From Coffea arabica (Eukaryota > Streptophyta > Magnoliopsida > Gentianales > Rubiaceae), in NCBI RefSeq assembly GCF_036785885.1, contig NC_092312.1, positions 21,656,001 through 21,720,000 of the forward strand: a DNA stretch of 64,000 nucleotides. Direction: 5' to 3'. Shown in pieces: positions 3,701 to 23,529 of this stretch. Under the pieces are notes generated by a model that was not told the DNA's origin, made no database searches, and saw nothing but the letters and a program-made list of their open reading frames with translations. A program made the translations under genes and the position numbers. Numbering within the stretch: the first letter of the stretch is position 1; each line of letters opens with the position of its first letter.

Positions 3701-4547
3701 TTTTTAACTCAAACATGTCCTTTAAGTACACAGTTACGAATGCATAGATTTGTTGAGTGTGCATAATTAAAGTGCTAAGTGGGCTTTCTTAGGTTAATTA
3801 TAATGAATATGAACTCGTTAGGTGCAAAGTTCTGAATGACCAACCCTCTTCTTCTTCCCAGTGATCAAACTTAGTTATCTCAAATTTGATGTTTTCTTGG
3901 GAAAGGTCTAATGCCAATTCCCTAGAATACCAATTAGTAGCCAATTGTCAGTGTATGGCTTCCTACATTCCACTCACTCAATAAAAATTGAGTTTTTTCT
4001 CTCCTGCATTCTGCCTTTTGGAGAATATTCTTGTCATCTTCCTAATGGCTTGGGGAATATAAATTTTTTGAAACGCAGGCAACAAGTGGGTTGGAACTCT
4101 GATTAAGTCTTATGTCATGGAGCTATTGATGTACTGTTGATTTTATCCCTCTAAATCACATTGGACTTTCGTCCCCCACTCGTGTTTTTGTAGGGTGATA
4201 CATGGCTTTCTAGTTTTTGAAATCGAGTTGCATTGCTGGTCTGAACCGTTTGTATTTGATTTTTTGTTTTAAAAACTGAAATATTTCATGGTCGGAGATG
4301 TCTTTGGTTGTATACGAGCTATAGCTACCATGGGCTTTTCTTTCTGCTATATAATGGAATAAGCCTTTGCAGGTTTCTGTGTTTCGCCCTTTTTAACTGT
4401 ATTGGCCTTTGGGTATTCTAGGTTTTTGGGTTGGACAGAAGGTACTGGTTCATCCCAACTTATTCAGAAGAAGATATACGAAGGATACCTGCCCTACAGG
4501 GTCTTGAATATCCGTCGAAACCTGACTTTGATGCCCAAGAATTCTGA
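781..4547 (+). CDS. DHHC-type protein S-acyltransferase (PAT13/PAT14-like), 3' six exons
   Basis: Palmitoyltransferase that moves a fatty acyl group onto cysteines of target proteins at Golgi, endosomal or plasma membranes. I read the CDS as join(781..1000, 1088..1179, 2324..2447, 2532..2617, 2965..3030, 4422..4547), 714 nt or 237 residues, all introns GT-AG and in frame. Visible in order: the [12 protein letters not shown] stretch before the cysteine-rich domain, the [18 protein letters not shown] zinc-binding part, the catalytic DHHC in [12 protein letters not shown], two hydrophobic membrane segments (exon 3 and exon 4), the TTxE motif (NTTTIE), and a C-terminus ending [10 protein letters not shown]. 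The order and wording match Arabidopsis PAT13/PAT14 as I remember them. The gene is cut by the window edge: the start codon and first two membrane helices are missing. The intron 3031-4421 is about 1.4 kb. No defect is seen in the visible part. Confidence 0.93.
1228..1291. repeat. Perfect 32-bp tandem duplication in a PAT intron
   Basis: Two adjacent identical 32-bp copies (1228-1259 and 1260-1291), each ending ggcaaatcaa, lie in the intron between the second and third visible exons. They look like a recent replication-slippage duplication with no evident function. Confidence 0.9.
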
Positions 4548-5723
4548 ACCTTGTTCGACATTTTGTAAGAAAACGGGTTTCTTCCCTAGTCGAAGCTACA
4601 GTGGAGCACCAAAAGCACGATTTTTTCACCCTTTAATTTGCATGGTTATTGATTTGGGACTGGTGCAGCCGTCTGGTGGCAACAACTCGAGGATGATTAA
4701 CCTGGTTGGAGTGGAAGCCCTTGGACCGCACAGGCGAGGATGCCTTGACGATCTGATTTGCTGACACGTGTTGATTAGAACTCTGGGTGGTAGGTTGCAT
4801 ACAGAAAAGATCCCGTTGAGATGGTGGCCATGTTTGATGTTCTTGTAAGCTTTAATTGTAGTTTCACAAAGATGTAGATAGTCTATCTCAGTAGCTAACA
4901 CGTAATGATGGTGTAACCCTTGTGATCACTTGTGTTGGTGCCTGGAGAAATCAATTAGAGGAGAAATGTTTTCTACTCTTTTCATGTATTACGTACGCTA
5001 AATGTCAGGGCCTTCAATATAATCCTAGTTGTCGTTTTAATTTTAAGTTCTGAAGGCGAATGCTGCAAAATGAAAATGTTACTCTTATAGGAAGATGGAG
5101 CTCTGCTCCACGAAAAAACAAGTCATTTTTTCCCCTTCTATCCACGTCTATCTTGGATTGCTATTCTAAAAAGTTTTTATTAAAAAAATTTATATTGAAA
5201 TATAGTGATTTAATATATGTAAGAATCAAATTCAGCTTCGTATATGAATCAAATTCATTTGTAGCCCAAGAAGTTTATGCTTCTAGCTAGGACAAAATGT
5301 TTCACAATTCTTGAATCCTTTTTCGGCATTAATGGCTCGTAGTTATCATGAAATTGGAGCTAGGCATTATGTTTTCAAAAACTGTTATCCTGTTTGGATT
5401 GCAGTTCTTTAGAGCGTTTATTGTTTTGACAGGTTTTATAAAAAATATCTATATATATATATATATTCTGTAAATATATCAAAATTTTTTCCGAAGAACA
5501 CTCAATAAAACTTTTCCCCAAAAGCTGCAATTCAATTGGGAGCGTGAGAATTCCATGCATTAAAGGAACGTTCTGCAGACCAGAAGAAGACATTCTTATT
5601 AATATTTCACTTTTTATTTTGGAGGCTGAAAAACGCAAATACTCCTGTAGAGTAGTACTTAAGTGGCAAAAATTTCAAATCAGTTGAGTGACCCCCCAAA
5701 AATAATAATAATAATAATAATAA
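4548..5723 (+). other. PAT 3' UTR and spacer
   Basis: About 450 bp of transcribed-looking 3' sequence follows the stop, then an AT-rich spacer with a (TA)n run near 5448-5466 and an (ATA)n run at 5700-5723. No gene is seen. Confidence 0.5.
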
Positions 5724-6654
5724 GGGTCAAATGCAAAAAATCCCCCACAAACTATATACCCAGTCGTAGTTTACCCCATAAACTATAATAATAGGCAATT
5801 TGCCCCGTTAAATGATATGTTTGGACAACACTACCCCTACTATCTTAAATCCTTCTTCTTTTTTTTTTTTCTCTATTAGATTTTTTCATTTTTTCCTTTT
5901 ATTTATTTTCTCCATCTCTCGTGGAACTAACCAACGTCTCTCTCTAATGTGAAAAAACTTACATCAAAAATTTTAATATTTTTTAAACTGCTTTTTTAAT
6001 TTGTTTATTTGTTAAATTCATTCTTAATAATTTGTCATAAACTCTTTATTATTACAAAATATATGAAGCTTATATTGTAAAGTGTATTAATCTAGTAATT
6101 CAACAATTTAAGTACCTATAAACTAATTAGGAGTTCACAGTTACTCAACTACTTATAATAAAAGTAACATATTATATATCACATAAAAAAGAAAAGTTAG
6201 CAATTGTTATTTGTAGTAAAATAAAAAATAAGAATAAACAACAATAGTAGTTCATTTTTTTTTTGTTATTGATGCTACTAATAATTGATTAATCAATTTC
6301 TCTATTTTGTTGTTATATATTTGAAAAGTTCATTTTCTTAAATGACATTGACTTCAACATTTGGACAAAAAATCTTGTATTCCATATATTTTTTTTTATA
6401 AAATATTGACATACAAAATTAAGAAATAAACAAATTTTGACTAATCTAGTCTACTTATTTAAACAATGTTTAAAGAAAAAAAGGAAGAATTTAAAAATAA
6501 AATGATAGGGAAAAAAGAAAAATAATAATGCTTAAAATAAAAGGGATAGATTTGCCCAAACATATTATTCAAGGAGGCAAAATGCCTATTATTATAGTTT
6601 ATGGGGTAAACTACAATTGGGTATTTAGTTTGTGGAGTTTTTTACATTTAACCC
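5724..6654. mobile_element. MULE-type MITE with long terminal inverted repeats and 9-bp TSD
   Basis: The left end begins GGGTCAAATGCAAAAAATCC. The right end, read on the other strand, begins GGGTTAAATGTAAAAAACTCC, and the two arms stay alignable for about 130 bp. Both contain the words TAGTTTACCCCATAAACTAT and AATATGTTTGG or close variants. The element is flanked by taataataa on both sides (5715-5723 and 6655-6663), although the left copy lies in an ATA microsatellite, which weakens it as TSD evidence. The 930-bp interior is AT-rich with no transposase. Long inverted repeats plus a 9-bp duplication fit a non-autonomous Mutator-like element. Its right end is only about 90 bp from the TATA box of the MLF gene. 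Confidence 0.82.
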
Positions 6655-7310: not shown

Positions 7311-9199
7311 ATGTCGGGTATATTTGGAGGGAGAGACCCTTTTGATGACCCCTTCTTTACTCGCCCTTTAGGTGGCTTATTTGGGTCCAAAATGTCTGCT
7401 TCGGCTGCTCCTTCTGGTGATCCAGTGCACAGCAATAGGTTGAAGGCACCGATTATTGAGGAGCTAGATATTGAGGATGATAATATATCTGGAGGAGAGG
7501 AGGATCCAGGGACTGCATCTGCTAATCAAAATCCATTTGTTGAGCACCCTGAGGACCAAATTGATGGTAAAGTTAAAGCCCCTTCACCCAATGATTCTGA
7601 ATTAGTTTAACGGATATTATTTGTCTGTAATCATTTCGATTTGTTGCTATGATTACTGTGGAGGTGTTGCAGATCATCATAAGAGCAAAACTAATAGCAA
7701 GAATAAAGAACTAGTATATAGGTCCGATCGTAATAAGGTGGGAGGAGAACGACCCCAAAAAGGAAGTGTCAGCTTCCAGAAAGTCACTTATGGAGGCATA
7801 AATGGGGCTTACTACACTGCTTCAACAACCCGAAGAACAGGAAATGATGGAGTAAGTAAACTGCCCTATGCCTTCTCATTTCTACACTTCTTCTTCATCA
7901 GAACTTTTGGCAGTTGAGATTTGTTCTGGGTTCTGTAGAAGATCTCATATTAAGGGTTCATTTGGCAATCAGGTGGTGTTGGAAGACAGAAAAGAAGCTG
8001 ATAGTACTACTGGTCAAGCAACCCATCGTATCTCTAAAGGGATCCATGACAAGGTAATGTTATTTTGATGTTCCGACTGATAGTCTTGCAGTTCTTGAAG
8101 GAAGATAAGTTTTTGGTCTCGTGGATTACTTATTGTATTACTTGTCAGAGAGCCGGTTAAATAATAGGGTTATAGGTAATAATGAAGCAATAGTTCTGGA
8201 ATTGATCATGAAGACTATGACGACAATCCATGTCACATACAGATCATATCTTTTGAGCGTTTTTTATATTTGTTGATGCTCAGTGGCTGCATCAAGTGGC
8301 TTGTTTATGACTCTAAGGAAAAGTAATTGAATAGCACTATAGCTTCTTTCATGGTACAGGATGAGTCTTAAGTGTTGTTTTTACTATTTTGACTTGCTTT
8401 TGTTTCTGCGATTTCATTACTTGTTAAGTTAGTCAGATATCTGTTGTTGTTCTCGACTAGTAGATACATATATGATGCTTACAAATATGACAATGGCAGG
8501 TTAAGAGTTATCTGCTTCTAGGTTGATTTCATAGTTCATTTTTCTTATAAACTGTACAATATGTGACTGAGAATTAGTGTGGAAATTGAAGTGTTTTGTC
8601 ACACTTTTTTAGGGTCACTCAGTGACAAGGCAGCTTAATGCTGATGGTGAGGTGGACACAATGCAAACTTTGCATAATTTAGATGAAGGTTTGTTTTCCT
8701 GTATATGTTTGCTCTTCATGTCTATACTTCATCATGCTTGTTGGTTGAGGATCTGTACGCTTCCAATCCCTCTCAGATGAATTAGCGGGTTTCGATCAAA
8801 GTTGGAGAGGTAGTGCTGATATGCATTTACCAGGATGGGATATGCCATTGGACTTTCATTCAAAGCCTGGTGAGTGATGCACATTATTTGACCTGTTCAG
8901 GGCAAGGACTATTCCCATGTATTGTCTCTTTTGCTGCATATAATCAGTTAAAAGGAGAAAACTATAGATGCATCACTATGTCTGGGTGAAAGATTTGTAA
9001 CACCGTGTGAGTGCTGTTTTTTTGTTGCTGTGCATGCTCGAATCATGCAGGTATTGGTGGCAGCCGGCTTACCTCCTGGAGTGGCTGGGGTCAACCAATT
9101 TGGCAGCAGCTCGGTAGAGATGCTAGTTTGAGACCTGGTGCTCAAGCTGATTCAGCTAGAGGAAGACCTAAAAAGACAGTTTCAATTCCAATAGAGTAG
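7311..9199 (+). CDS. Myeloid leukemia factor (MLF) family protein, copy 1
   Basis: Member of the eukaryotic MLF family, small proteins linked in animals to transcription control and protein quality control; the plant role is poorly defined. CDS join(7311..7566, 7673..7851, 7973..8053, 8613..8688, 8777..8869, 9051..9199), 834 nt, 277 residues, all junctions GT-AG and in frame. The start (GGRDPFDDPFF soon after Met) follows an acceptor at 7302-7303 that closes a leader intron. Visible: the N-terminal DPFDDPFF motif, an acidic segment (EELDIEDD), then the MLF core with VTYGGINGAYYTAS, the ISKGIHDKGHSVTRQ segment, TLHNLDEDELAGFDQSW, and a Trp-rich tail (SGWGQPIWQQ). It is a paralogue of the gene at 24820-26683, sharing exon phases and identical exon lengths for three internal exons (81, 76 and 93 nt). 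It lacks the 78-nt exon that copy 2 has before the last exon. It appears intact. Confidence 0.9.
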
Positions 9200-10097
9200 A
9201 TGTGTTGATAATTGGATTTGAGAATTTTGAGTAGTTGGACGGCAAGACGTGGTGCCAATGGGATCATGCCTTCTCTATTGGCCTGTAAGAGTTATAAAAG
9301 CTGAGCCAACCCATGCAACGTTTTCTGAATTACAGCCCGTAAGTTATTTGCTTTGAAGAGTGGGGTTCTGATGCCCAACTGATTGCTTGAATAATCTTGT
9401 TTGCTTTGAGCTATAGTAGCAGATCAAGTGGGAAGTTGGTTTGTTTTTTGGTCTGTGGTCTATGTAAATAGGCAGTGTATTGTCGATGCTTCTTTCACTG
9501 AACGTCAATTTTATCATACTCTGGCATGAAATATCAGGGTTTCCTCAAGTACGGCTATTTAGTACTTGCGCCCTAATTAGTATTAGTCAAGACTCGAGAG
9601 AGAGGTTTGGCTATTATGGTAATTGCCGATTGGGAAAAGTGAAGGCAAACACGGTAACGTTCATTCTGGCAATTCTTTCCATATAATTTGATAGAATGCC
9701 TATAAAAAGAGCCCAAAGGGCCTAAAGATCGATGCGGGTGGCCATTGTTGCTCAACTCTTATTTCTTTTCCTTTTCTTTTTACAAAGTACAAATTATAAA
9801 CAACAGATTCAAGTGTGAAGAAAAAAAAAACTACTGCCATCCATTCGAAAGGGTTGGCGAAAGCAAACAGGAGGATTCAAGAAACCTCGAATCGAACTCT
9901 GAACTAGGATTGGAACTAATTGAAGATGCTGTGCCCACGACAACACGATCAAGCAAACCAGAGAAGCGAGAAGCACATAATGGCCATGCAGTCTGCAGCA
10001 CATCTGGAGAGAGGGAAGTAGATGCTTAGACTGGCTAGCCAAAGAAGCAGCTCAACACCGAGCACTCCAGGGTCCAATGGATGCACCATCACTTAAG
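9200..10097. other. MLF copy 1 3' UTR and spacer
   Basis: About 280 bp look like the 3' UTR of the MLF gene. The rest is unremarkable spacer with only short unsupported ORFs. Confidence 0.5.
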
Positions 10098-10552
10098 AGC
10101 TGTTAATCGAACCGGGTAACTCACGAGTCGAGCTCGATTTGGCTCGCACTCGACTTGGCTCGTATTTCTCAGTAAACGAGTCGGGTTTGAGTTCTACCTG
10201 TACTCGTTTATGAATCGAGACAAGTCGAACTCGGCTCAGGAACTATTCGATAGGCTAGCAATACAAGGGAAGTAGTGATTGCTGTCCTAATTTTTCTTTT
10301 CTCTTCCCTTTTCCATAGCTCGCTAAAGCTTGTTAAACTTGGCTCGTTAAACTCGGCTCGATTTTCAAACTCAAGTTCGAGCTTGAAGCTGAGTTTGGCA
10401 AGTCGATTTCAAATGGCTTTTGAAATTCGAATTACTAATCGAGCAAGTTCGAGTTAATTTGATAAATGTTTGAGTCGAGTGCTCACTCAATAGATGTTTG
10501 AGTCGAGTTCGATCAGCAGGTGTTCGAGCTCGCCTCATCTCGATTAACAGCT
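10098..10552. mobile_element. Putative hAT-like MITE with CTCGA-rich interior
   Basis: The left end AGCTGTTAATCGA (10098-10110) is an exact inverted match to TCGATTAACAGCT (10540-10552). The interior is full of GAGTCGAG and GCTCG words in both orientations, typical of a dispersed plant MITE type whose ends read GCTGTTAA. I could not find a convincing 8-bp duplication, so the family is tentative. A related, more degenerate sequence lies near 57712-58125. Confidence 0.6.
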
Positions 10553-11410
10553 TCCACCAGTAGCTTTTAGATAGCTTTTAGCCCCTTCTCTGTATCCAAA
10601 AAAAAAAAAAAAAAACCACTCATTCTTGGGAAAAGGTCTTACTGTTCACATTTTAAAACTAACGGGACAAAAATGTATAGCATGTTCGGATTGAATTGTA
10701 AGTAAGAAATTCAAAACTTCTTAGAAAAATAAAATTAAGAAAAAGGGTGTTGCCTTGATAACGCTATGTAACTTTGCACATGAGCTCGTATTCAATATTA
10801 CATCTGCATACAAACAAAAGAAAATTATATATATACTACATCTCCATCATAAAAATTGAAAAAATAATTTACCATAAGTATGTGTTCATGAGGTGTTGCA
10901 CCATCGCAGTGCACCCCCTTCATCATAGGTTGTGGGCTGACACTTCATATTCAGCTAACTTCGTGCATTGAATTTTCACGTACGTTAAATGCCTTCCTTG
11001 GAAGGGGGTGAAGTATTTTCAGTTTGGTTTGTTGAACTGAAAAAAATAATACATAAATAACCTTTAAATTAATCAATGTCTTTATATAAATACCATGTTG
11101 AAAGTAAATCCCTTTTTTTTTCCCAAAAACTTATTGTTTATTTTCTAATACAAATTTATTACTGTTTATATCCTTTCTTATTTTACTACATGATTTAACT
11201 AGACCAATAAAAATACTTCTCACGTTTGATTGTTTTAAAATAATTCTTGTAGGAAAGGAGTTCTCTTCAAATTTCAATTACCATTTGTGAGATAAGAATG
11301 GTGATTAAAGTGAGCTTTTTCTTTGTAATCCAAGCAAGGTGTTTATTTACATATTGTGATACCTACTGGATATGTTAGCACACTTAAATTATATATTTAA
11401 TTTTTTATGT

Positions 11411-11452
<42 letters not shown>

Positions 11453-11930
11453 TCATATTTTTATATTCTTGTATTTATATATTTTTCAAATGAACTTCAC
11501 TTTTGTGAAAAAATTAACACAAGATATTTCTTGTTAAGGAGTTCCACTAGGCACTCCATAGTCAAGCCCATTAATAATAATAATAATAATGAAAAAGAAG
11601 GGTAACACACAGGTTTGCCTCAAGAGTTGCCGACCTTTGGGGTTAAATATAGGATTAGGTTTAATTAACTAACTTCAAAAGTTTTGAAAAAAAAAATTTC
11701 GGTCCAAATCCAAGAAACAAATTGTTCTCTCCGAATCAATAAATGGCATGGAGTTTCATAAAATTTGCCACTTAACACATAAATGAAGTCCTTTTTTAAC
11801 TCTTGGCATCATCTGACACTAACGGTTCATTGAGTAAAATTAATCCTTCAACGGTGATAGTGAGTGACAGTGTCGATATGTAGACGACCAATGCTTCCGG
11901 AACCACTCGGCCACACATTTATAGTATAAT
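10553..11930. other. AT-rich spacer with microsatellites
   Basis: It contains an A run at about 10597-10615, a compound (CA)n(TA)n tract at about 11412-11452 and an (ATA)n tract near 11570-11590. No gene is supported. Confidence 0.5.
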
Positions 11931-12527
11931 TGAGGAGGTGATTTTTAGTTGGTAACTAGACCGACCTGGATCAGTCCTCTCTGAGATGAAGTGAGGTGAA
12001 CTCCTGTGTTCGAAGTGAACCTCCTCGTCCGAAGTGTGTGGCGGGGCTTCTCCCCTGATATCACTCCGACGATCAAGTTAGTATGAGAACCAGAATAATG
12101 AGAATGAGTTAATGAACAGTGTATGCTTACTTGTTGGGAGTGTGTCTGGGGTATTTATAGAAGAGAGGTGGTCAAGACGGAAGGCTCATGCTAGCGGGAC
12201 CCACTCTCTGGCATTACGGCTCTGTCTCCTGTCAGGAGGTCTGACTCTGACACTGTAGCCGCCTGGGAGTGATGACGGAGGATATGGTGCAGGTGCCATT
12301 AAGTGCCTCCAGTGCTTTTCAGATAAAGTGCTGGTCCTGGATGATGTCAGGTGGGTTGACATCATCAGCGTGCAGCTGAGGCGGGGGTGCCGAGGTCGGC
12401 TACACAGTATGCTATGGAAACGGCCGAGCCCGAGCTCAGGGATGATGTCCGGGACACGGATGAACTCCGATGAGGGACGAGGTGAGTCCACCTCGGCCAC
12501 TCGGGATGGCCGAGGTGAGCATCCTCA
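11931..12527 (-). repeat. 3' LTR of the Tat element
   Basis: It starts TGAGGAGGTG and ends GCATCCTCA as written on the plus strand. It is nearly identical to the LTR at 21096-21692, with differences seen only at ttttTagttgg/ttttTggttgg and cctgAtatc/cctgGtatc. Its own promoter would read leftward, out of the element. Confidence 0.95.
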
Positions 12528-12528
12528 A

Positions 12529-12541
12529 TAAGCCCCCCAAG
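12529..12541 (-). promoter_or_regulatory. Polypurine tract
   Basis: On the minus strand the sequence cttggggggctta immediately precedes the 3' LTR. This is the expected position of the plus-strand primer. Confidence 0.75.
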
Positions 12542-12833
12542 CCTCGGATGCTCCGAGCAAGGGAGGTGCCGAGGCTTCCTAGTGCTGAAGTCATGAAGAG
12601 TCGAGGCTCCGAAACCGCTCCGGAAGATGCGGGGACTCGACACGTGGACGAGTCAGTTGATAGGACGTGGTCACTGATAACCGTCGCGTCGTGAAGTAGT
12701 GGGACGTTTCGTGCAGAAGGTGTCAGTCGAAAGGACGGGGCATTAATGAGGAGAGAGGGAGGCGTGACGTTTTGAATTCGATCGTGATCGTCTTTTCGTA
12801 TTCTTGCCGCCTCTTCGGATTCTGGCTCTCCTC

Positions 12834-12842
12834 TATAAATAG
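12834..12842 (+). promoter_or_regulatory. TATA box for the antisense gene
   Basis: A tataaatag motif lies in a GC-rich context (cctctataaatagg). It is about 30 bp upstream of a probable start site near 12865 and 177 bp before the chosen ATG at 13019. It faces opposite to gag-pol and is outside the LTR. Confidence 0.65.
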
Positions 12843-13018
12843 GTGGTCCCTTTCACCGCATGGCCCATCACTTTCTTTCTTCGCTTGTGACTTGCAAAAT
12901 TTGTGAGCGTAGCCGAGATCAATCCTGCCAGCCGAGATCACAGCCGAAGTCGTCCACTTCGTCCAGTTCGGTATACAATAGTAAGTATCCCTTTTTCTTC
13001 TTGTCTTGTCTTTCACAT

Positions 13019-15334
13019 ATGGCCAAAACGGCTAAAACCCACAAAGAAACCGTGACCCCGAGCTACCAGACCGAGGTGAGGGCGGATTCTGAGGAAGAAG
13101 CGACGACGTCCAGTTCGGAGGGGTCGGCACAGGGTTCCGAGGAAGGATCGACCGAAGTGAGAGTCGGCGAGGCAGGCTCGGGATTGGAATCGTCCGAGAT
13201 GAGCGAGGGTGGTTCCGAGGTCGAGTACAATACCGAGTTCGGGACCGAGATACCCCATGACGAGGGCGTGCCGGAGCCAGTTGCTCCAGTGGACGTAGCC
13301 AACATCAATTTCGGCCAGATGCCGAAGTTTAGGAGTCGAGTGGGAAGGGATAGGGCCGAGAAGGTGGTAGACAAGTACCCCTTCCGGCCGTGGTATGAAG
13401 TTTTGCCGCCCGAGGTGGATGACACAGCCGCGGAACCCCCCTTTGGCATGGTGGCCGTCTACATTCAACAGCTGGAGGCCGGGCTGAGGATGCCGACGTC
13501 GAGGTTCCTCCGGGACTTACTTCGTCACTTCCAGGTGAGAATCACCCAGCTCACCCCGAATGCGATCCGCATCATTGTGGGGTTTGAGATGCTGTGCCGA
13601 CATCAGGAGGTGACTCCCTCCGTCGATCTCTTCCGCCGATGCTACACCCTCAAGGCGCACGCGACTGATAAGGGATGGTTTTATGTTGGCAACCGGAACA
13701 ATGCCATCCCGAAGTTGGTGATCGGTGCTCCCAGCTCGATCAAGAACTGGAAGCGCGACTACTTCTTCGTGCCCGGAGTGGACTTTCCGAGGGGTTTTTG
13801 GTGGAGGCCAATTAAGGCGAAGGCCGACCCCTCAGCGGGGGATGCCGAAGAGGAGTCCTTCCAGAAACTGATGAAGTCGGGACTTCGGCTATTCAGCCAT
13901 GACTACCCCGAAGCCGTGCTCGTGGATGGGGGGATAAGTCGAGCCGTGATCAATACTACCAAAGCTCCCTTCTTTTCCACTGAAATTGAGAAGCCTTGTA
14001 ATTTTCTTTCATGACTTTTCTTTTCACTTCGGCTAAGGCATATGATAATATTTATTTCTTGTGCAGTGACTAAACTGTCCGACCTCGTCGTCTCTGGCTC
14101 GTCCGAAGTGGCCAAGAGGCAGAAGAGGAAGAGCACTGACGAGACCTCAGCACCTCCGCCAAAGAAGAAGAAGTCACAAGGACCAGCCGCTAAGACCTCG
14201 GCGCCTAAAGGCACTCCCTCCAAGGTTGGCCAGAGCAGCTCGGCCACTGCGGCTACTGGGTCCACCTCGTCTGTACCAGAGGGAGTCCCCCTTGGAGTTG
14301 TTACAAAGGTCACACCTCCTTCTGGCCGAGGCAAGCAGCTGAAGCCTCCAGTTAATCCGGTATCGGGGACCTCGCTATGGAATCGTTTCCATAGCCCCCC
14401 AGTGTTTCCCGGAGACGAGAAGACGCACTCCGGCAATCATTGGTGTCCGAACTGGAAGATTTCGGTCAACGACAGGTGCCAACACCCTCGGGTCGCTCAA
14501 GAGCTAATAATGCACTCCATTCTGCCAAGGGATTTGGAGTTCATGAAGAAGCTGAGCCCGGCCGAGCTGGTTCAAAGTCTGATGGTGACCACGGCTTCCA
14601 CCTCAGCCTTCGCGGCCGAGATGGCACACCGATATTGTGCTCTGGTCGATGAGCAGGACACCGGCAAGCTACAGAATCAGATCTCCAAGTTGGAGAAACA
14701 ACTGGCGGTGTCCGAGTCTGAGAAGGCCGAGCTTGAAAAGCGGCTTAAGGAGGCCGAGGTGAAGGATGAGGAGGCCGTGGCTACTGTCAACAGTCTCAGA
14801 TCGGCTCTTGAAGAAGAGCAGAAGAGGGGGGACGAGGCGAAGAAGTCCCACGAGCAAGCCCTTGACAGTGCTAGAACCTCGGCCGTGGAAACGTTTCGGA
14901 GGTTTGAGGCCTTCACCAGGGATCTCGGCCAACTACTCACGCCGAACTTCATGTTTGGCTTCACATCGGCCATAGATGAGGCTGCAGCTCACCTCTCCTC
15001 CGAAGCCTTGGAGTCCCTGAAAAACCATGCCAGCTACAATGAGGACTCCAAGGAGTTGTGCGACCGGATGGCCGAGAGCCTCCAAGCTGGAAGGAACCTG
15101 ACCGAGGTCCAGGCCGAATTCAACAAATGGCTGTCCGAGCTCGACGAGGTGCTCGAGGAGGTTGAAGAGGAAGAAACTGGAGAGGATGCCGGGGGAGACG
15201 AAGCCGGAGAGGACGAAGTCGGAGGGGACATCGGCAAAGAGCCTGAAGATGAACACCCCGGCGGAAAAGAGGCCGAAGAGGAGGCTGCCCAGGAGGGAGT
15301 CAAGACCGGGGATGCAGCCGATACGGGGGTTTAG
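13019..15334 (+). CDS. Antisense ORF of the Tat element (PF04195-like 'gypsy-type transposon' protein)
   Basis: Intact gene on the strand opposite gag-pol, between pol and the 3' LTR. I read it as join(13019..13997, 14067..15334), 2247 nt, 748 residues; the 69-bp intron has GT-AG ends, and splicing joins two long frames without a stop. The frame stays open upstream to an ATG at 12860, but that ATG is only about 20 bp after the TATA box, so 13019 is preferred. Order: acidic Ser/Glu/Gly-rich N-terminus (to about residue 110); a globular region of about 220 residues (VYIQQLEAGLRMPTSRFL, a conserved-looking KNWKRDYFFV) of the type annotated as 'putative gypsy type transposon'; a Lys-rich basic stretch (PPPKKKKS), possibly a nuclear signal; a long coiled coil (ISKLEKQLAVSESEKAELE and on); and a very acidic Glu/Gly tail. 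Function unknown. No catalytic motif is visible; binding of nucleic acid or Gag is possible but is inference. Confidence 0.85.
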
Positions 15335-15507
15335 GCTTGTAGGCTTCAAGGGGGTGGCCGAGGTGAAGTGTCTAGTAGCACTCCGACTTCGGCCTTGTAT
15401 TTTTTGTAATACTTCTATTGAATGAAAGTCTGTTTCTTTTCATCTCAGCTCTTTAATTCCTTGTTTCTTGCTTTGACTTCATCCCTTGTTTGTCCCCCTT
15501 ATTTTTT

Positions 15508-15513
15508 AATAAA
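15508..15513 (+). terminator. Poly(A) signal of the antisense gene
   Basis: AATAAA lies 174 bp after the antisense stop, within the 274-bp gap that separates the two converging genes of the element. Confidence 0.5.
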
Positions 15514-15608
15514 GAGTGCTGGGCATCATATTGTTGAAAAATAACTAAATGGCTGAAGCCATAACTTGACAAGATAATTGGATGAAATAACTGAATGAAG
15601 TCACAACT

Positions 15609-18600
15609 TCAAGCATAATACAACCTAAGGTTCTCGGCGTGCCAAGACCTCGGCACTAATGAGCCATCTCGGTAACTCAGTTTACAATACCCCTTAGGGT
15701 CAGATTCCACAACTCGGTAGGGGCCTTCCCATTTTGGGCACAGTTTTCCTTGAGGCTCAGCTCGGCTGACTGAGTTTTTTCTGAGAACCAAGTCTCCAGG
15801 GCGGAATCTACGATGTCTGACCCGGGCATTGTAATAGTGTGCCAATGTGTTCTTATAAGAAGCTATCCGGGCGGAGGCGAGGTCCCTTCGTTCTTCGACG
15901 AGGTCGAGGTCCAGCAGCCTCTCTTCGTCGTTCACCTCGGCGGCATAGGCTGCCAGCCGAGGGCTGCGGGTAAGGATCTCAGCCGGGATGACAGCCTCGG
16001 CTCCGTAGGTCAGGGAGAATGGGGTCTCTTGAGTCGCTGACCTCGGCGTGGTCCGATATGACCACAAGACACTGGGGAGTTCCTCCACCCAAGATGACCC
16101 AGCTCGGTGTAGTCGGGTCTTGAGGCCATGCAGGAGAGTCCGGTTGAAGTTTTCTGCTTGACCATTGGCTTGGGGGTGGCCTACCGAAGTGAAGTGTTGT
16201 TTGATGCCGAGGTTCTCGCACCAGGTCTTGAATGGGTTCTCGGCAAATTGTCTCCCATTGTCCGAGATGATGATCTGAGGTATGCCAAAGCGGCAGACAA
16301 TGCATTTCCAAAAGAATTTCTGAATGGCCAGCCCCGAGATGGTGCGAAGTGGCTCGGCCTCGACCCACTTAGTGAAGTAGTCCACAGCCGTCACCAGGAA
16401 GGTATAGCCCCCGACCGCTTTAGGGAAAGGACCTATGATATCTGTCCCCCATTGCTCGAATGGCCAAGGTGAAGTGATGGGGACCATGAAATTTGAGGGC
16501 TGGTGATGCTCGGGTGCGTGGACTTGGCAGGAAGGACAGCCGAGAACGAGGTCCTGGGCGTCTTGCCGAAGTGATGGCCAGAAGTATCCAAGGAGCATAG
16601 TCTTCTTGGCTAACATCCTGTGGCCGACATGAGCTCCGCACAGGCCTTCGTGGATCTCGTGGAGGATATGACGTCCGGCCTCGGGAGTGACACACCTCAG
16701 CCAGGGGCCGAGGTAAGAGCGTTTGTACAATTCTCCATCGCGGAGGGCGTATCGAGCAGCCTTGCGTTGTATCTTCCTCGCCTCGGCCCGGTTTTCGGGA
16801 AGGGTTCCCTGACTCAGGAAAAGGATGATCGGGGTCATCCAATTATCTTCGGAGTGGACGGGGCAGGCCACCTCTTCCACATATCCTGGTTCATTCAGAA
16901 CTTCCACTAAGACCGTCTTGTTGAGGTCCGAGAATGAAGTGGAGGCCAGTCGGGATAGGGCGTCGGCTCGCTTATTCTGGGACCGGGGGATTCTTTGGAT
17001 TTCGAATGACTTGAAGTATGCGGTGAGTTGGTGAACTTTGGAGAGGTACCTTTGCATGGTCTCATCCTTAGCCTCGTATTCACCAAGAACTTGGCGCACA
17101 ACAAGTTGGGAGTCACTGCGGACGTGGACTTGCTGGGCGCCGAGCCTTCGGGCCAACTGGAGTCCAGCAATTAAGGCCTCGTACTCGGCTTCATTATTGG
17201 TGGCTGGGAAGCCAAAGCGGAGGGCGTAGGAGCACACCTCTCCCTGAGGTCCTTCCAGGAGAAGTCCGGCTCCGCTGCCTTCTCCGTTGGAGGATCCATC
17301 GACATACAATGTCCACTGGGGTGAGGAGGATACCTCGGCTAAGGCTGAGGTGGACTCCGGACCTTCCGTGAAGGTGAGCTCGGCAAGGAAGTCAGCCAAA
17401 GCTTGAGCTTTTATGGCGGTGCGTGGCTCGTAGGACAAGTCATATTCTCCCAATTCGACAGCCCACTTGGTGAGGCGACCAGAAGCTTCGGGTCGCACCA
17501 ATATTTGCCGAACGGGCTGGTCAGTCCTGACCGAGATAGGATGGGCTAAGAAATAGGGCTTCAACCGCCGAGCGGCATGGACTAGTCCCAGCACCAGTTT
17601 CTCCACCTGAGTGTATCGAGTCTCCGGCCCGCGAAGAGCGCGGCTGACGTAGTAGATCGGCACTTGGGTGCCCTCATCTCGGATGAGCACAGCGCTGACA
17701 GCCTCGTCGGCTGCAGAGAGGTAGAGGTAGAGCTTCTCCTCGGGCCGAGGTGAAGCGAGAGTGGGCAGGTGGTGCAAGTACTGCTTCAGCTGGTCGAAGG
17801 CAGACTGACACTTCTCAGTCCAGGCGAACTGATCAGACTTCTTCAGCACTTTAAAGAAGGGCAGGGCCTTCTCAGCAGATTGAGACAAAAAGCGGTTCAG
17901 TGCGGCCAGGCGTCCATTCAGTCTTTGGACTTCTCGGAGGTTCCGAGGTGGGGACATATCTTGGATGGCCTTGACTTTGTCGGGGTTGGCCTCGATCCCC
18001 CGATGGGAAACCAGATACCCCAAGAATTTTCCCGAGGTGACGCCGAAGACGCACTTCTTGGGATTCAGCTTCATCCTCGAGTCTCGCAGGACCCCGAAGA
18101 CTTCCCTCAAGTCTAACAGGAAAGATGAAGTGGCGAGACTTTTGACGAGGATGTCATCCACGTAAGCCTCCACATTACGGCCGATCTGATTCTTGAAGAG
18201 CCGGTTGATCAGCCTTTGGTAGGTCGCCCCGGCGTTCTTCAGCCCAAACGGCATGGTGGTGTAGCAATAAACACCTCGATCGGTGTAGAACGCCGTCTTC
18301 TCTTGGTCCTCTTCACTCATTCCTATTTGATGATACCCTTTGAAGGCATCTAGGAAGCACAGGATCTCGTACCCCATCGCCGAGTCGACGAGGGTGTCTA
18401 TCCTCGGGAGGGGATAGCAGTCTTTGGGACAGGCCTTGTTGAGGTCGGTGTAGTCTACACACATTCTCCATCCGCCGGTGTCCTTTCTGACCATGACTGG
18501 GTTGGACAACCAAGTCGGATATTGGATTTCGTGGATCATCTTGGCCGGCAAGAGCTTGTCGACCTCGTCCGATATGGCCTTGCTGCGTTCGGGGCCGAAG

Positions 18601-21056
18601 TGTCTTCGCTTCTGCCGCACAGGTCGGGCCTGTGGGTTAACGTTAAGTTGGTGAGTCATAAGCTCGGGTGGCACTCCGACCACTTCATCTGCGGACCACG
18701 CAAAGATGTCTCGGTGGTCCTTGATCAGGGAGATCACTTCTTCTTTCAGGGGTGAAGGGAGTCCGGCCCCTACTTGGACCACTCGGTCAGGCTTGGCTTC
18801 ATCCAAGACCACTTGTTCCACTTCATCCCCTGGCTCAAGCCTGCTGGGCTCTCCTGCCTTATGAGGGTCGATGCAGTCTATGGAGAGGACAGCCGGCCTC
18901 TTTTCTTCTGACCTCGGCGGGGGCTGAGGTCCGACTGCGGCTTGGATGGTGGCGAGGTAGCATTCTCGGGCGGCGCCCACGTCACTGCTCACCTCAGCCA
19001 CCCCCTCTGGTGTTGGAAATTTGAAGCTTAGGTGGTAGGTAGAATATACGGCTCTCAAGGCATTGAGCGTGGGCCGGCCTATCAGCATGTTGTAAGGAGA
19101 GTCCGCTTTGACCACCGCAAAGCTGACAGGCACAGTTCGGCAACGGGGATGACGCCCGATAGTCACCATTAAATTCACCATGCCTTCCGGGTGGACGACG
19201 TGTCCCCCGAAGCCGACAAGGGGAGTTCTGACCGGAGTGAGTTGGTCCCGGATTAGCTTCAAACTCTCGAAAGTTCGGTAGTACAGGACGTCTACCGAGC
19301 TTCCGGGGTCAACGTAGACCTTCTTGACTATATAATTGTTTGTGAGGACCTCAATCACGAGGGACTCGTGATTGCTGGAGGCAGCGGGGACAGGGTCGCG
19401 GGGACCATAGGTTATGACCTCGGACAGCCTCGAGCTCGGCTCGGCCACATCCATGCCGGCTTGGCGGTAGGTCCGCTTTCGGGAGCTCTGGCTGTCTCCT
19501 CCCGTGGGACCACCTGAGATGGTGTTGATCACCCCGGCAATGTTTGGACCATAGCCTGGTGACCCGTCGCGTGGAGGCCTTTGGTCCCCTTTCTGGTCCT
19601 CAGGACCTCGGCAGTTGAGCTTGGTGTCCCGCCTGTCTTCTCGGCGAGGACCTCGGCTCTCCCGGTGGGAGGCACTTCGTCCGAAGCTTCCATCTTTGCG
19701 GACAAATTGTTTCAAGTGTCCTTGCCGAATTAGATTTTCGATCTCTCGTTTCAGATCGTTGCAGTCTTCGGTCTCGTGCCCAACATCTCGATGGTAGGCA
19801 CAGTAGAGGCTGGAGTTCCTCCTATCTCTTCTTCCAGGGATCTCAGGAGGTGTTCGGCCGAGGTGGTTCTGCCTCATCACAGCCAAGACATGAGATCGGC
19901 TGGAATTGAGCGGTGTTAGCTCAGCGTCCGAGGTGGAAGATCTTCCTCTCACGATCCGGTCAAAGACACTCCGGCGGTCCCGTGGTGGGTTTGAAGTGCC
20001 ACTTGGGCCGGGTTCACCTCGGCCGATGTCTTTCCTTCTCCGGGCATCTTGTCCCGTACGAGAGGCTTGGGCTTCTCGCTTCATGCGATTCACATCTTCA
20101 CTTCGGATTCCCTGGTCCACTCTTTCCCAGAGTTCGTGAAGTGTACGAGGGTAATCCCGATGGATTTCGGTGTTGAAAAGTCCGGCCACCAACCCGTTGG
20201 TAAAGGCCGCGAGAGTTACCTGCTCGTTCTGATCAGGTATTTGCACATTCTCCTCGTTGAACCTCTGAGCATACGAGCGAAGAGACTCGCCCTGACCCTG
20301 TTGAAGGTTCAAGAGATAAGCTGAAGTCTTCGTGATTGGTCGAGACGACACGAAGCGGTGGATGAACCGGTCTATCAGCTCATCCAGGGAGGAAATGCTC
20401 CCTGGTTCCAAACTCCAGAACCACTTCCGGGCAGTCCCATGTAGGAAAATGGGGAAAGCCCGACAAATCACGGCGTCGGGGACGCAGTAGAGTCGGAATG
20501 CGGAGATGAAGGCGCGGAGGTGATCCTCGGGGTCACCTCGGCCGTCATAGGTGTGCAAGTTTGGAAGCTTGAAGTTCGGGGGCACCCTTTCCCCATTGAT
20601 GTCATCTGTGAAGGGCGGAGCCCTCATGTAGTCCGAAGCCAGACCCCCGGGGCGCCGAGGTGGGTCCTCAACTCGCTTTCCTAGCAGTCCCCGGGAAAAC
20701 GCCCGGGAGATGGAAGTTAGCTTAGAAGTCGCCTTGGAGGAGGCGCGCCTGGAGGTACTCCGTGAGAGACGCCCCTCATCGGAGTCTTCACCTGAAGGTG
20801 CCTCAGGGGACTTCGTCGGCCTCCTCTTGGAAGACTCGGCCTTTTCTTTCCCCTGTCTTTTGAGGTACCTTCCTAGCTCCTCAAAAATGGTTGGGTTGTG
20901 TGATACGAACTCGGCCATCTTGGCGATGGCCTCCTCGTTGTTAGGCTGGGTCCTTGGGGACCCTTGCTCTTCAGAGATGCGATCTTGCTGGGCTCCCGAG
21001 GTCTGCCCAGCCCCAGTTGAGGGAACTCGACCACTTCTGGAGCGCGTGGATCTCAT
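15609..21056 (-). CDS. Gag-pol polyprotein of Tat-lineage retrotransposon
   Basis: Single uninterrupted 1815-residue frame. Residue positions are approximate. Gag capsid-like region 150-340 (ARKWFWSLEPGSI); variant zinc knuckle C-x2-H-x4-H-x4-C near 418 (CAYHRDVGHETEDC); aspartic protease with VDPGSS near 582, a DPG form in place of the usual DTG/DSG; reverse transcriptase about 770-1010 with YVDD at 965; first RNase H about 1060-1190; second, archaeal-type RNase H from about 1245 (LYVDGSSN) to 1375; integrase with HHCC zinc finger near 1464-1510 and a D-D-E core at about 1537, 1596 and 1632; C-terminal chromatin-binding-type tail. All expected motifs are present with no stop or frameshift, so the element may be autonomous. 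The ATG lies about 22 bp after the primer-binding site. Codon use is GC-rich compared with the host genes. Confidence 0.97.
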   Translation of the reverse strand: MRSTRSRSGRVPSTGAGQTSGAQQDRISEEQGSPRTQPNNEEAIAKMAEFVSHNPTIFEELGRYLKRQGKEKAESSKRRPTKSPEAPSGEDSDEGRLSRSTSRRASSKATSKLTSISRAFSRGLLGKRVEDPPRRPGGLASDYMRAPPFTDDINGERVPPNFKLPNLHTYDGRGDPEDHLRAFISAFRLYCVPDAVICRAFPIFLHGTARKWFWSLEPGSISSLDELIDRFIHRFVSSRPITKTSAYLLNLQQGQGESLRSYAQRFNEENVQIPDQNEQVTLAAFTNGLVAGLFNTEIHRDYPRTLHELWERVDQGIRSEDVNRMKREAQASRTGQDARRRKDIGRGEPGPSGTSNPPRDRRSVFDRIVRGRSSTSDAELTPLNSSRSHVLAVMRQNHLGRTPPEIPGRRDRRNSSLYCAYHRDVGHETEDCNDLKREIENLIRQGHLKQFVRKDGSFGRSASHRESRGPRREDRRDTKLNCRGPEDQKGDQRPPRDGSPGYGPNIAGVINTISGGPTGGDSQSSRKRTYRQAGMDVAEPSSRLSEVITYGPRDPVPAASSNHESLVIEVLTNNYIVKKVYVDPGSSVDVLYYRTFESLKLIRDQLTPVRTPLVGFGGHVVHPEGMVNLMVTIGRHPRCRTVPVSFAVVKADSPYNMLIGRPTLNALRAVYSTYHLSFKFPTPEGVAEVSSDVGAARECYLATIQAAVGPQPPPRSEEKRPAVLSIDCIDPHKAGEPSRLEPGDEVEQVVLDEAKPDRVVQVGAGLPSPLKEEVISLIKDHRDIFAWSADEVVGVPPELMTHQLNVNPQARPVRQKRRHFGPERSKAISDEVDKLLPAKMIHEIQYPTWLSNPVMVRKDTGGWRMCVDYTDLNKACPKDCYPLPRIDTLVDSAMGYEILCFLDAFKGYHQIGMSEEDQEKTAFYTDRGVYCYTTMPFGLKNAGATYQRLINRLFKNQIGRNVEAYVDDILVKSLATSSFLLDLREVFGVLRDSRMKLNPKKCVFGVTSGKFLGYLVSHRGIEANPDKVKAIQDMSPPRNLREVQRLNGRLAALNRFLSQSAEKALPFFKVLKKSDQFAWTEKCQSAFDQLKQYLHHLPTLASPRPEEKLYLYLSAADEAVSAVLIRDEGTQVPIYYVSRALRGPETRYTQVEKLVLGLVHAARRLKPYFLAHPISVRTDQPVRQILVRPEASGRLTKWAVELGEYDLSYEPRTAIKAQALADFLAELTFTEGPESTSALAEVSSSPQWTLYVDGSSNGEGSGAGLLLEGPQGEVCSYALRFGFPATNNEAEYEALIAGLQLARRLGAQQVHVRSDSQLVVRQVLGEYEAKDETMQRYLSKVHQLTAYFKSFEIQRIPRSQNKRADALSRLASTSFSDLNKTVLVEVLNEPGYVEEVACPVHSEDNWMTPIILFLSQGTLPENRAEARKIQRKAARYALRDGELYKRSYLGPWLRCVTPEAGRHILHEIHEGLCGAHVGHRMLAKKTMLLGYFWPSLRQDAQDLVLGCPSCQVHAPEHHQPSNFMVPITSPWPFEQWGTDIIGPFPKAVGGYTFLVTAVDYFTKWVEAEPLRTISGLAIQKFFWKCIVCRFGIPQIIISDNGRQFAENPFKTWCENLGIKQHFTSVGHPQANGQAENFNRTLLHGLKTRLHRAGSSWVEELPSVLWSYRTTPRSATQETPFSLTYGAEAVIPAEILTRSPRLAAYAAEVNDEERLLDLDLVEERRDLASARIASYKNTLAHYYNARVRHRRFRPGDLVLRKNSVSRAEPQGKLCPKWEGPYRVVESDPKGYCKLSYRDGSLVPRSWHAENLRLYYA

Positions 21057-21077
21057 TTTAGCAATAGTAGTCTCGTT

Positions 21078-21095
21078 CCCACAGACGGCGCCAAT
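21078..21095 (-). promoter_or_regulatory. Primer-binding site
   Basis: On the minus strand, directly after the 5' LTR, the sequence is ATTGGCGCCGTCTGTGGG. The TGGCGCC core is the tRNA-complementary start found in many plant gypsy elements. I did not assign the tRNA. Confidence 0.8.
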
Positions 21096-21692
21096 TGAGG
21101 AGGTGATTTTTGGTTGGTAACTAGACCGACCTGGATCAGTCCTCTCTGAGATGAAGTGAGGTGAACTCCTGTGTTCGAAGTGAACCTCCTCGTCCGAAGT
21201 GTGTGGCGGGGCTTCTCCCCTGGTATCACTCCGACGATCAAGTTAGTATGAGAACCAGAATAATGAGAATGAGTTAATGAACAGTGTATGCTTACTTGTT
21301 GGGAGTGTGTCTGGGGTATTTATAGAAGAGAGGTGGTCAAGACGGAAGGCTCATGCTAGCGGGACCCACTCTCTGGCATTACGGCTCTGTCTCCTGTCAG
21401 GAGGTCTGACTCTGACACTGTAGCCGCCTGGGAGTGATGACGGAGGATATGGTGCAGGTGCCATTAAGTGCCTCCAGTGCTTTTCAGATAAAGTGCTGGT
21501 CCTGGATGATGTCAGGTGGGTTGACATCATCAGCGTGCAGCTGAGGCGGGGGTGCCGAGGTCGGCTACACAGTATGCTATGGAAACGGCCGAGCCCGAGC
21601 TCAGGGATGATGTCCGGGACACGGATGAACTCCGATGAGGGACGAGGTGAGTCCACCTCGGCCACTCGGGATGGCCGAGGTGAGCATCCTCA
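21096..21692 (-). repeat. 5' LTR of the Tat element
   Basis: 597 bp, TG...CA ends within the short inverted repeat TTGAGGA/TCCTCAA. A minus-strand TATA box (ctataaata) lies at 21317-21325 and would drive gag-pol. Confidence 0.95.
21317..21325 (-). promoter_or_regulatory. TATA box of the 5' LTR
   Basis: A ctataaata motif on the minus strand inside the LTR, oriented toward gag-pol. The same motif is present in the 3' LTR at about 12152-12160. Confidence 0.6.
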
Positions 21693-21773
21693 AATACAAT
21701 AAAAGAAACCAACGTATGGAAGTTTGAAGAAGAAAGCGGAGGCAGCAGTAGTACTGCTGCAACCGGATAACTA

Positions 21774-22377: not shown

Positions 22378-23529
22378 TTAAGACTCTATATTGCAATTGC
22401 GAATGCAAATGGCCCATAATTCCAAGGTTTCACAGCCACATAAATAGTGGGACCTCTTATTATTTGCTTGCTTCAAATCAGAATAACTGTGGTTATACTT
22501 AAGAATTGTGTACTTCTTGCTGAGCACTGGCAAAATGTGAAGAAATATGTGATATGTATGCTTTTGTCTAATCTGAACAACAAAGTTTACCAGGGACTTG
22601 AGACCATATAACTTGCTGTCACCTAAGAGATAATGGATAAAGAACATGGTCGAGCACATTGCACGGTCAGGCATGGAATTTTTGACAGCTCTCAAGAATG
22701 AGAGATTCAAGTCTAAGAACGCTGGAGTAGTGGGATCAATATCATGTTTCAGATCCATAAGATTATTAGTTACTGTAGTTATTGATCCCATTCTAACCAA
22801 ATAAATTAAAGCCTGAATTGCTATCCTTAGGGCCGTAATTCCAACATGAGTGAAGAAGTTCTGAATATCTTCCTGAACAACACCATCACTGATATGGAAG
22901 CCAAATTGGAAATCCTTTACCTGAACGAATAATTTTTCAACTCTGTTTCTGAGGGCATGGATTTGTTTGATTTGGTAATCAACTTGCGTCCGCGCCTGAG
23001 CCTGAGCCTGAGCCTGCACCTGTGCACAGGTATGCGACAGAATCCTTGGAATAAATCGCAAGAAGTATATCCAAATAGAATAAGAATGAAGAGCAGGAGA
23101 CAGCAATCCCAAGGTGCAGCTGCCCGAGAGATCATCAAGAACTTGTCCGACTGGTTCCCTGAAAAGCCCAATTGTTCTCTCCCATTTGCAGAGTACATCA
23201 ACCACTCCTAGACAACCGTTCAATGTTTGATCAGAAACAAGAACACCGCCAAAGTCGTTGGCCAAGTTATCTGATACAGCTTCAGTTATGCTGACGAGAA
23301 ATCCGAAGTTACTGACAACGTTGTCTGCATCACTGCACCGTCGAAGGTGAATAAGAAAGGTTGCCAGCAGCCTCCAAGTTTCAAGTTGATCAATGATATG
23401 GTCGGGGTTTAAGGCAGTTGGACGGCCAAGGCCATGTCCCCTTGCTCCATGCCTCCAACCACGGAGCTTCTTCATGGCAGAATCAAGGCGCCGACATATG
23501 GAACTCCAACTCGAAGTGGAAGCCATCAA
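22378..23529 (-). CDS. Single-exon ORF resembling the N-terminal region of an R1-like resistance protein
   Basis: 383-residue open frame, helical and leucine-rich, with no P-loop, NB-ARC or LRR sequence. Phrases such as DLKHDIDPTTPAFLDLNLSF and LKSLVNFVVQIRQKHT recall the N-terminal extension of Solanaceae/Rubiaceae R1-type CC-NB-LRR proteins, but this is memory-based and weak. A (QA)n stretch near residue 170 comes from a GAGCCT hexanucleotide repeat (23000-23025). The last 40 or so residues look like read-through into non-coding sequence. If the family call is right, this is a fragment that has lost the nucleotide-binding and LRR parts. It lies on the opposite strand between the beta-glucosidase fragment and the second MLF gene, with 148 bp between it and the glucosidase exon 2. 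It could instead be an unrelated lineage-specific gene. Confidence 0.45.
   Translation of the reverse strand: MMASTSSWSSICRRLDSAMKKLRGWRHGARGHGLGRPTALNPDHIIDQLETWRLLATFLIHLRRCSDADNVVSNFGFLVSITEAVSDNLANDFGGVLVSDQTLNGCLGVVDVLCKWERTIGLFREPVGQVLDDLSGSCTLGLLSPALHSYSIWIYFLRFIPRILSHTCAQVQAQAQAQARTQVDYQIKQIHALRNRVEKLFVQVKDFQFGFHISDGVVQEDIQNFFTHVGITALRIAIQALIYLVRMGSITTVTNNLMDLKHDIDPTTPAFLDLNLSFLRAVKNSMPDRAMCSTMFFIHYLLGDSKLYGLKSLVNFVVQIRQKHTYHIFLHILPVLSKKYTILKYNHSYSDLKQANNKRSHYLCGCETLELWAICIRNCNIES

Follow-up and report, generated by a model that had tools for sequence, protein, structure and literature searches.

An intron-bearing antisense TRP28 gene and a dispersed short motif in a Retand retrotransposon of Coffea arabica: a possible case of self-recognition

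The 64,000-nt stretch analysed here, called the window (Coffea arabica contig NC_092312.1, positions 21,656,001 to 21,720,000 of the forward strand, assembly GCF_036785885.1), contains a long terminal repeat (LTR) retrotransposon that carries gag-pol on the minus strand and, between pol and the 3′ LTR, a two-exon gene of 748 codons on the opposite strand. Genes of this kind are already known; what is new here is the conserved intron, the measured constraint on the protein and, above all, a short motif dispersed over the element, with conserved sites and a third base that depends on the family. The element and its antisense gene are composed as follows (window coordinates; NLS, nuclear localization signal; RT, reverse transcriptase; pN/pS, ratio of the proportions of nonsynonymous and synonymous differences).

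11928..12528, minus strand: 3′ LTR, 601 bp, 99.67% identical to 21093-21693 (2 transitions)
12834..12841, plus strand: TATA box TATAAATA (TATAAA at 12834), 306 bp inward from the 3′ LTR edge
13019..13997, plus strand: exon 1, from the ATG at 13019; residues 1-326 and the first base of codon 327
13457..13654, plus strand: TRP28 domain (Transposase_28, PF04195), residues 147-212; E 5.5e-18, 65.4 bits against a curated cut-off of 26.2
13998..14066, plus strand: GT-AG intron, phase 1, 69 nt; same site in 64 of 65 distinct copies
14067..15334, plus strand: exon 2, including the stop codon
14099..14185, plus strand: NLS-like basic cluster, residues 338-366, near the start of exon 2; pN/pS 0.19
14648..14947, plus strand: probable coiled coil, residues 521-620; heptad score equalled by 16 of 500 shuffles
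15508..15513, plus strand: AATAAA, a possible poly(A) signal, not conserved (13 of 37 full-length copies)
15609..21056, minus strand: gag-pol, an intact single frame of 1815 codons with gag, RT, RNaseH, RVT_3 (a second RNaseH-type domain) and integrase
21093..21693, minus strand: 5′ LTR, 601 bp, paired with 11928-12528

The TATA box, the 748-residue two-exon frame, the 69-bp GT-AG intron, the antisense orientation and the 274-bp gap (15335-15608) between the stops of the two convergent genes had been noted in a preliminary description of the locus, and all of these coordinates were confirmed. The internal region of the element spans 8,564 bp, including 3,080 bp (12529-15608) between pol and the 3′ LTR. 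Pfam domains follow one another in the gag-pol frame as gag, RT, RT_RNaseH, RVT_3 and integrase, which is the gypsy order (RT, RNaseH, integrase) together with the extra RNaseH reported for the Tat lineage (PMC6317226; here and below, statements on cited papers refer to their accessible passages). The element had been called a young Tat element. We place it in the Tat clade of Ty3/gypsy and, more exactly, assign it to the Retand lineage of that clade on the basis of domain order and the antisense TRP28 gene; its youth is borne out by LTRs that differ by only two transitions over 601 bp. No matching pair of target-site duplications was found at the LTR flanks (window 11900-11940 and 21680-21720), which may reflect recombination between elements or a changed flank.

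Relatives of the gene were collected from a genome of 1.198 Gb in 131 contigs (G000), in which copies were labelled from L001 onward and the window copy WIN. A search with the PF04195 profile gave 979 candidates, 150 of which were scored, and the copies were drawn from those 150. Because they were chosen partly for long open frames, decayed copies are under-sampled. The gene region was inspected in 65 distinct copies, the window included; the first set comprised 48 rows, five of them loci fetched twice and counted once, and a second set of 20 copies entered the intron analysis but not the substitution counts.

The ATG at 13019 is the first after 12861, and the chance expectation of TATAAATA in the 490 nt upstream of it is 0.0012. 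A TATA box precedes the ATG by 137-203 nt in 45 of 47 copies, the remaining two having been retrieved with just 181 and 154 nt of upstream sequence, and by 144-186 nt in 17 of 18 additional copies, so the TATA box proposed as the gene's own is a retained feature. The AATAAA, which had been listed along with it, is present at 15508, but it occurs no more than 250 nt from the stop in just 13 of 37 full-length copies, with 0.19 expected by chance in that stretch, and we do not count it among the conserved parts. The antisense gene has a longest open run of 439 codons, whereas none of 2000 first-order shuffles exceeded 288, and a codon preference trained on gag-pol peaks in precisely the proposed frame in both exons. 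Because the substitutions fit the plus-strand frame, two open reading frames (ORFs) of 151 and 177 codons opposite the gene (window 13013-13468 and 13903-14436, both minus strand) look like shadows of that frame.

Because the intron length is divisible by three and the unspliced frame of the window copy is interrupted by a single TGA, the window copy alone could not exclude a continuous frame with a nonsense mutation and no intron at all. Many copies carry TGG for the TGA and are open through the intron for about 790 codons, which would also suit a continuous frame; the stop itself is therefore not the conserved feature. What is conserved is a GT-AG interruption at one phase-1 position in 64 of the 65 distinct copies, the exception being L008, for which both exon ends were not found. 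Its length and sequence drift, with 68, 69 or 70 nt in the first set, 67-71 nt in the second (L070 included) and 96 nt in L097. Lengths of 67, 68, 70 and 71 nt would shift a continuous frame, yet the exons of many such copies stay aligned. Between families at 48-51% exon-1 identity, the introns share little besides their ends and a CTAAC-type branch-like site, which we take to be the plant branch consensus, and L070 retains the intron at 28% identity over aligned exon 1 (34% in the best segment). In the window copy the intron is extremely rich in T (30% GC, 33 T), and none of 2111 exon-only windows of 69 nt is as GC-poor, falls below 46% GC or has more than 20 T. The lengths and the fixed position in relatives rule out the nonsense-mutation reading for practical purposes, its remaining probability being negligible; to judge from these alignments the intron is real and old, and the gene is almost certainly spliced. 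Two further arguments were dropped. Intron divergence of 0.20 against a synonymous divergence (dS) of 0.47-0.60 had suggested an ultra-conserved intron, but the difference is moderate for a short, signal-rich intron and the alignment is loose, and exon lengths in multiples of three are forced by in-frame alignment.

A pattern for the border between exon 1 and the intron matched 76 times genome-wide and one for the spliced junction of exons 1 and 2 not once, the latter covering window-like families only and a non-match being no proof of rarity. Because borders thus number 76 against no junctions, the gene appears to travel as unspliced sense RNA, as the preliminary description had proposed when it placed the gene's passage in the sense genomic RNA, where the splice sites are not read.

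Antisense TRP28 (PF04195) ORFs are known from flowering plants, where 97% of the Retand clusters with recent activity contain them (PMC11963269), and the window gene resembles them in its domain, its orientation and its place between pol and the 3′ LTR; the element also lies inside the size ranges given there (POL-3′ LTR region 2,933-6,566, internal region 7,380-12,869, LTR 315-1,194). That study used ORF Finder and called these ORFs unspliced, whereas here a conserved intron joins a TRP28 exon to a coiled-coil exon and a dispersed motif accompanies the gene. In its accessible text, TRP28 and Smc-like ORFs are listed separately, 57 TRP28 ORFs and 17 other domains are given among 72 annotated antisense ORFs, and the word intron is absent; we infer that these counts fit TRP28 and Smc ORFs as two exons of one gene. 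The conserved intron thus corrects a gene model that ORF scans split in two. Neither an intron in antisense TRP28 genes nor a motif of this sort is mentioned in the accessible passages of PMC6317226, PMC11728184, PMC7730604, PMC3091746 and PMC12844716; subscription literature, including the Grande gene23 paper, lies outside this scope.

The preliminary description had read selection from the intactness of a single young copy, which is weak by itself; a comparison between copies is needed. We therefore compared 32 stop-free copies, after excluding seven with incomplete coverage of one or both exons (L004, L006, L008, L010, L012, L045 and L048) and five of the 37 full-length copies that contain stops (L011, L017, L018, L022 and L040). 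The summed pairwise ratio of nonsynonymous to synonymous divergence (dN/dS) was 0.199 for exon 1 and 0.196 for exon 2 over 496 pairs, which are not independent. On a tree of 16 copies, without a transition/transversion term and with mosaic copies that blur any tree, omega was 0.199 for exon 1 and 0.216 for exon 2, and these fits surpassed those at omega 1 by 231 and 322 log units, so that the proposal of selection on the protein survives and a dN/dS near 1 across copies does not. Shifted frames of the same strand gave dN/dS of 1.1-1.8 and reverse frames 1.1-2.1, save one that shares third positions (0.27-0.28). For RT-RNaseH, dN/dS was 0.057 over the 18 copies for which this region and the antisense gene were both available (the window and 17 of the 20 pieces fetched, stop-containing codons skipped); by this measure the antisense protein is looser than the polymerase, though its constraint is clear. 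The lowest pN/pS values, 0.10-0.13, belong to residues 1-15, TRP28 and residues 213-270, and the acidic tail is the least constrained part (0.67). On these ratios it is virtually certain that the antisense protein is under purifying selection in both exons.

These values bear on a reading in which the antisense transcript works as RNA, for instance as a source of double-stranded or small interfering RNA, and its frame is incidental. The two transcription units are convergent and PMC7264820 considers such a function; an omega of about 0.2 in both exons (16 copies, tree) and the conserved intron position, however, indicate that the protein is selected, which rules out antisense RNA as the sole product and makes this reading very improbable, although an additional action of the RNA is compatible with the data.

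Exon 1 and exon 2 differ in their distances to the window in L014, L024-L026, L031, L034, L036, L039 and L043 (for example, dS of 0.21 and 0.57 in L036 and of 0.57 and 0.29 in L043 for exons 1 and 2, respectively), as if subfamilies had recombined inside the antisense gene.

TRP28 was matched in all 22 copies scanned, in agreement with the earlier assignment of the middle domain to the PF04195 type, and PMC11963269 predicts DNA binding for TRP28. The basic cluster has 8-10 K/R per 25 residues in 22 of 22 copies and is by its look an NLS, which suggests that the product is probably a nuclear protein. The coiled coil, announced earlier as long, is likely on its heptad score, but support is modest and matches to coiled-coil families are weak. 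Searches for solved relatives in the PDB gave best E values of 0.18 and 0.4 for exon 1, none for an exon-1 profile and none for exon 2 alone at 0.01; a 69-residue chain at E 0.0099 to an exon-2 profile was judged to be a chance helix. A resemblance to HTH_3 (8 of 22 copies, best E 0.01, below the cut-off) was too weak to use. Beyond this genome, no relatives were confirmed in viral contigs or plasmids, and the single match in prokaryote contigs (L001) was judged to be a chance peptide within a bacterial protein.

The second main feature of the element is a short motif, CANNTCGG in its wider form and mostly ACCTCGGC in the window element, which is spread over the LTRs, gag-pol and the antisense gene on both strands at about ten times the chance frequency.

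12389..21681, both strands: dispersed motif ACCTCGGC / GCCGAGGT, 24 exact sites including those in the LTRs, starting at 12389, 12490, 12509, 14195, 14753, 14876, 15357, 15647, 15934, 16040, 16206, 16707, 17332, 17744, 18911, 19605, 19650, 19857, 20016, 20535, 20654, 21554, 21655 and 21674

The internal region of 8,564 bp holds 18 ACCTCGGC sites (7 plus, 11 minus) against about one expected, and the most frequent 8-mer of any kind in 40 shuffles occurred seven times. The motif also lies within the first 150 bp of each LTR, and it is absent from the 38 kb of the window outside the element. Amino-acid or codon use as its cause is ruled out in gag-pol by synonymous codon shuffling, with 14 sites against 1.40 ± 1.03 (0 of 1000 shuffles); these sites fall in all three frames (2, 7 and 5). 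Counted in 12 elements, CANNTCGG had densities of 2.1-6.1 per kb; its density was 4.68 per kb for 20 pieces of the RT region and 4.86 per kb for 60 pieces of the antisense gene, versus 0.14-0.19 per kb in three outside stretches. Genome-wide, CACCTCGGC gave 6,291 matches versus 2,941 for the reversed word; among the first 100 matches listed, 38 fell into four clusters, two of which adjoin a PF04195 match or contain an exon-intron border match. Not every motif cluster was shown to be a TRP28 element.

Motif positions are conserved as well as numerous. In 8 of 9 comparisons, all with the window as one partner, positions in gag-pol were shared above control words of the same letters and spacing. 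Among the five most distant partners, the shared sites were 8 of 17 for L091, 2 of 10 for L092, 4 of 16 for L093, 8 of 20 for L094 and 5 of 9 for L090, with control-word fractions of 0.12, 0.09, 0.13, 0.11 and 0.09, respectively. The third base varies between families, with C:G of 99:33 in the window's clade (WIN, L019, L029, L077, L083 and L027), 36:33 in a clade at 50% identity (L073, L075, L076 and L089) and 8:46 in L070 and L097; because these counts come from related copies, no significance value was used. We consider it very likely, from the excess and the site conservation, that the motif is a feature under selection at the DNA level. L075, compared with L091, has a second over-represented word, CCGGATCC (15 versus 0.8 expected), besides CAGCTCG (12 versus 1.0).

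The presence of the motif on both strands also speaks to a reading in which the protein, like Rev, would export or package the genomic RNA and bind RNA, not DNA. Retroviral accessory proteins act in this way (PMC7264820), and the CERV protein of Cer1 is reportedly an example. An RNA signal would have no need of sites on both strands, however, whereas the internal region has 7 on the plus and 11 on the minus strand, and no RNA-binding family matched the antisense protein in profile scans of the window protein and 22 copies, which leaves this reading unlikely. The scaffolding or chromatin/RNA-binding role proposed in the preliminary description is too vague: its basic patch is the NLS-like cluster kept in 22 of 22 copies, and the dispersed motif would instead suggest sequence-specific DNA binding.

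We propose that the antisense gene would be transcribed from its own TATA promoter against gag-pol and spliced, and that its 748-residue product would combine the TRP28 domain with an NLS and a C-terminal half that is helical. The gene would be copied through the sense genomic RNA, in which the intron lies backwards and hence would not be removed. After nuclear entry, the protein would bind CANNTCGG at the sites that selection would maintain throughout the element, in the LTRs and gag-pol as elsewhere, and would thereby mark the element's own copies; the protein of the window family would prefer CACNTCGG and that of the L070 family CAGNTCGG. The most likely gain would be escape from host silencing or activation of the element's own LTR, as VANC provides for VANDAL DNA transposons. 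We infer expression, splicing in RNA, nuclear entry, binding and anti-silencing from sequence comparison and from likeness to known systems, and we hold them with differing confidence. That the TRP28 protein reads the motif is plausible, if slightly short of probable; the explanation as a whole, from a spliced accessory gene to self-marking by a nuclear protein, we regard as a reasonable but tentative account; and escape from silencing or LTR activation, argued from the VANC analogy, is a more tentative suggestion still.

VANC binding and demethylation have been proven, with the motifs YAGTATTAY for VANC21 and AGTTGTCC/AC for VANC6 (PMC5735166). The proposed likeness to VANC is one of working and consists of an element-encoded, predicted nuclear protein, a short, family-specific repeated motif and subfamily variants; like the VANC targets, the motif is an over-represented short word with family variants. 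VANDALs, unlike the element described here, are DNA transposons, and binding by the window protein is only predicted. Locally lower CG methylation has been reported in sunflower Retand elements (PMC12844716), which is suggestive only. In its position, the gene is like Grande gene23 of maize, which PMC7264820 and PMC11963269 place in antisense within the 3′ internal region and describe as having a promoter of its own and a nuclear product (nuclear by prediction here); the former also calls for study of spliced antisense transcripts. By description in the same two papers it is likewise comparable to HBZ of HTLV-1, an antisense-encoded nuclear regulatory protein of a retroelement. The antisense promoter of HTLV, however, lies in the 3′ LTR (PMC7264820), whereas the TATA box here is internal, 306 bp from the LTR.

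Several observations weigh against motif recognition by the TRP28 protein. VANC targets lie mainly in non-coding tandem repeats, whereas the sites here are spread over coding and non-coding sequence, largely the former, and no long tandem array was detected by TRF in this element. Within the antisense coding sequence alone the motif excess is weak (3 versus 1.0; 46 of 1000 shuffles), and L096 has no extra site conservation (0.33 versus 0.38 for the control). The largest cluster seen on C1 is, at least over the 651 bases read, a tandem array of motif-bearing units with no similarity to the elements compared. The motif control from another class of element is limited to one 2.2-kb chromovirus piece (42% GC, TRP28-less); that piece itself has no motifs, against 6-11 in pieces of the same size from five TRP28 elements. 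Finally, because the change of the motif follows the divergence of the whole element, the pol of L070 also being the most distant, it is not assignable to TRP28 over another element protein.

This last point favours a reading in which the motif is read by a host factor of transcription or chromatin, or by integrase or some other protein of the element, and TRP28 serves a different nuclear step, for instance import of the pre-integration complex or choice of the integration site. The NLS-like cluster would suit such a step, and PMC7264820 proposes a role in the pre-integration complex. A host factor, however, would not predict a third base that changes between families, and the only TRP28-less element piece inspected lacks the motif. 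We regard this reading as a real possibility that falls short of probable. Returning to recognition by the TRP28 protein, its fullest form, a VANC-like self-recognition by Retand inside an LTR retrotransposon, with a motif selected as DNA, a protein that changed along with it and TRP28 and Smc ORFs as two exons, is somewhat doubtful as a whole. The candidate target motif makes the function of a widespread antisense gene testable by binding. If the protein binds the motif, plants would have a second, unrelated-looking kind of sequence-specific self-recognition encoded by an element, and gag-pol would count among the rare coding sequences that also bear scattered protein-binding sites under selection.

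The array on C1 (L099; G000 C1:4722700-4723350) consists of units of roughly 36 and 80 bp organized around CCACCTCGGCC; it showed no similarity to the other loci compared, and its layout is reminiscent of the tandem arrays that VANC targets. Next to the element in the window lies an ORF of 383 codons with a TTG start (22378-23529, minus strand), which had no Pfam match at E 0.01, and the Pfam scan also found PPR genes in the window. Elsewhere in the genome, matches on one strand are evenly spaced at about 9 kb, at C8:16207731-16262362 (six, about 9.5 kb), C22:42476990-42495196 (three, 9.0 kb) and C9:52443316-52452596. Similar even spacing was seen at C14:45987588-46032695, C11:60256773-60302155 and C10:39021355-39039756, and likewise for chromovirus-type protease matches. 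The pattern would fit complete retroelements arranged in tandem, perhaps with shared LTRs, although it may also be an assembly artefact.

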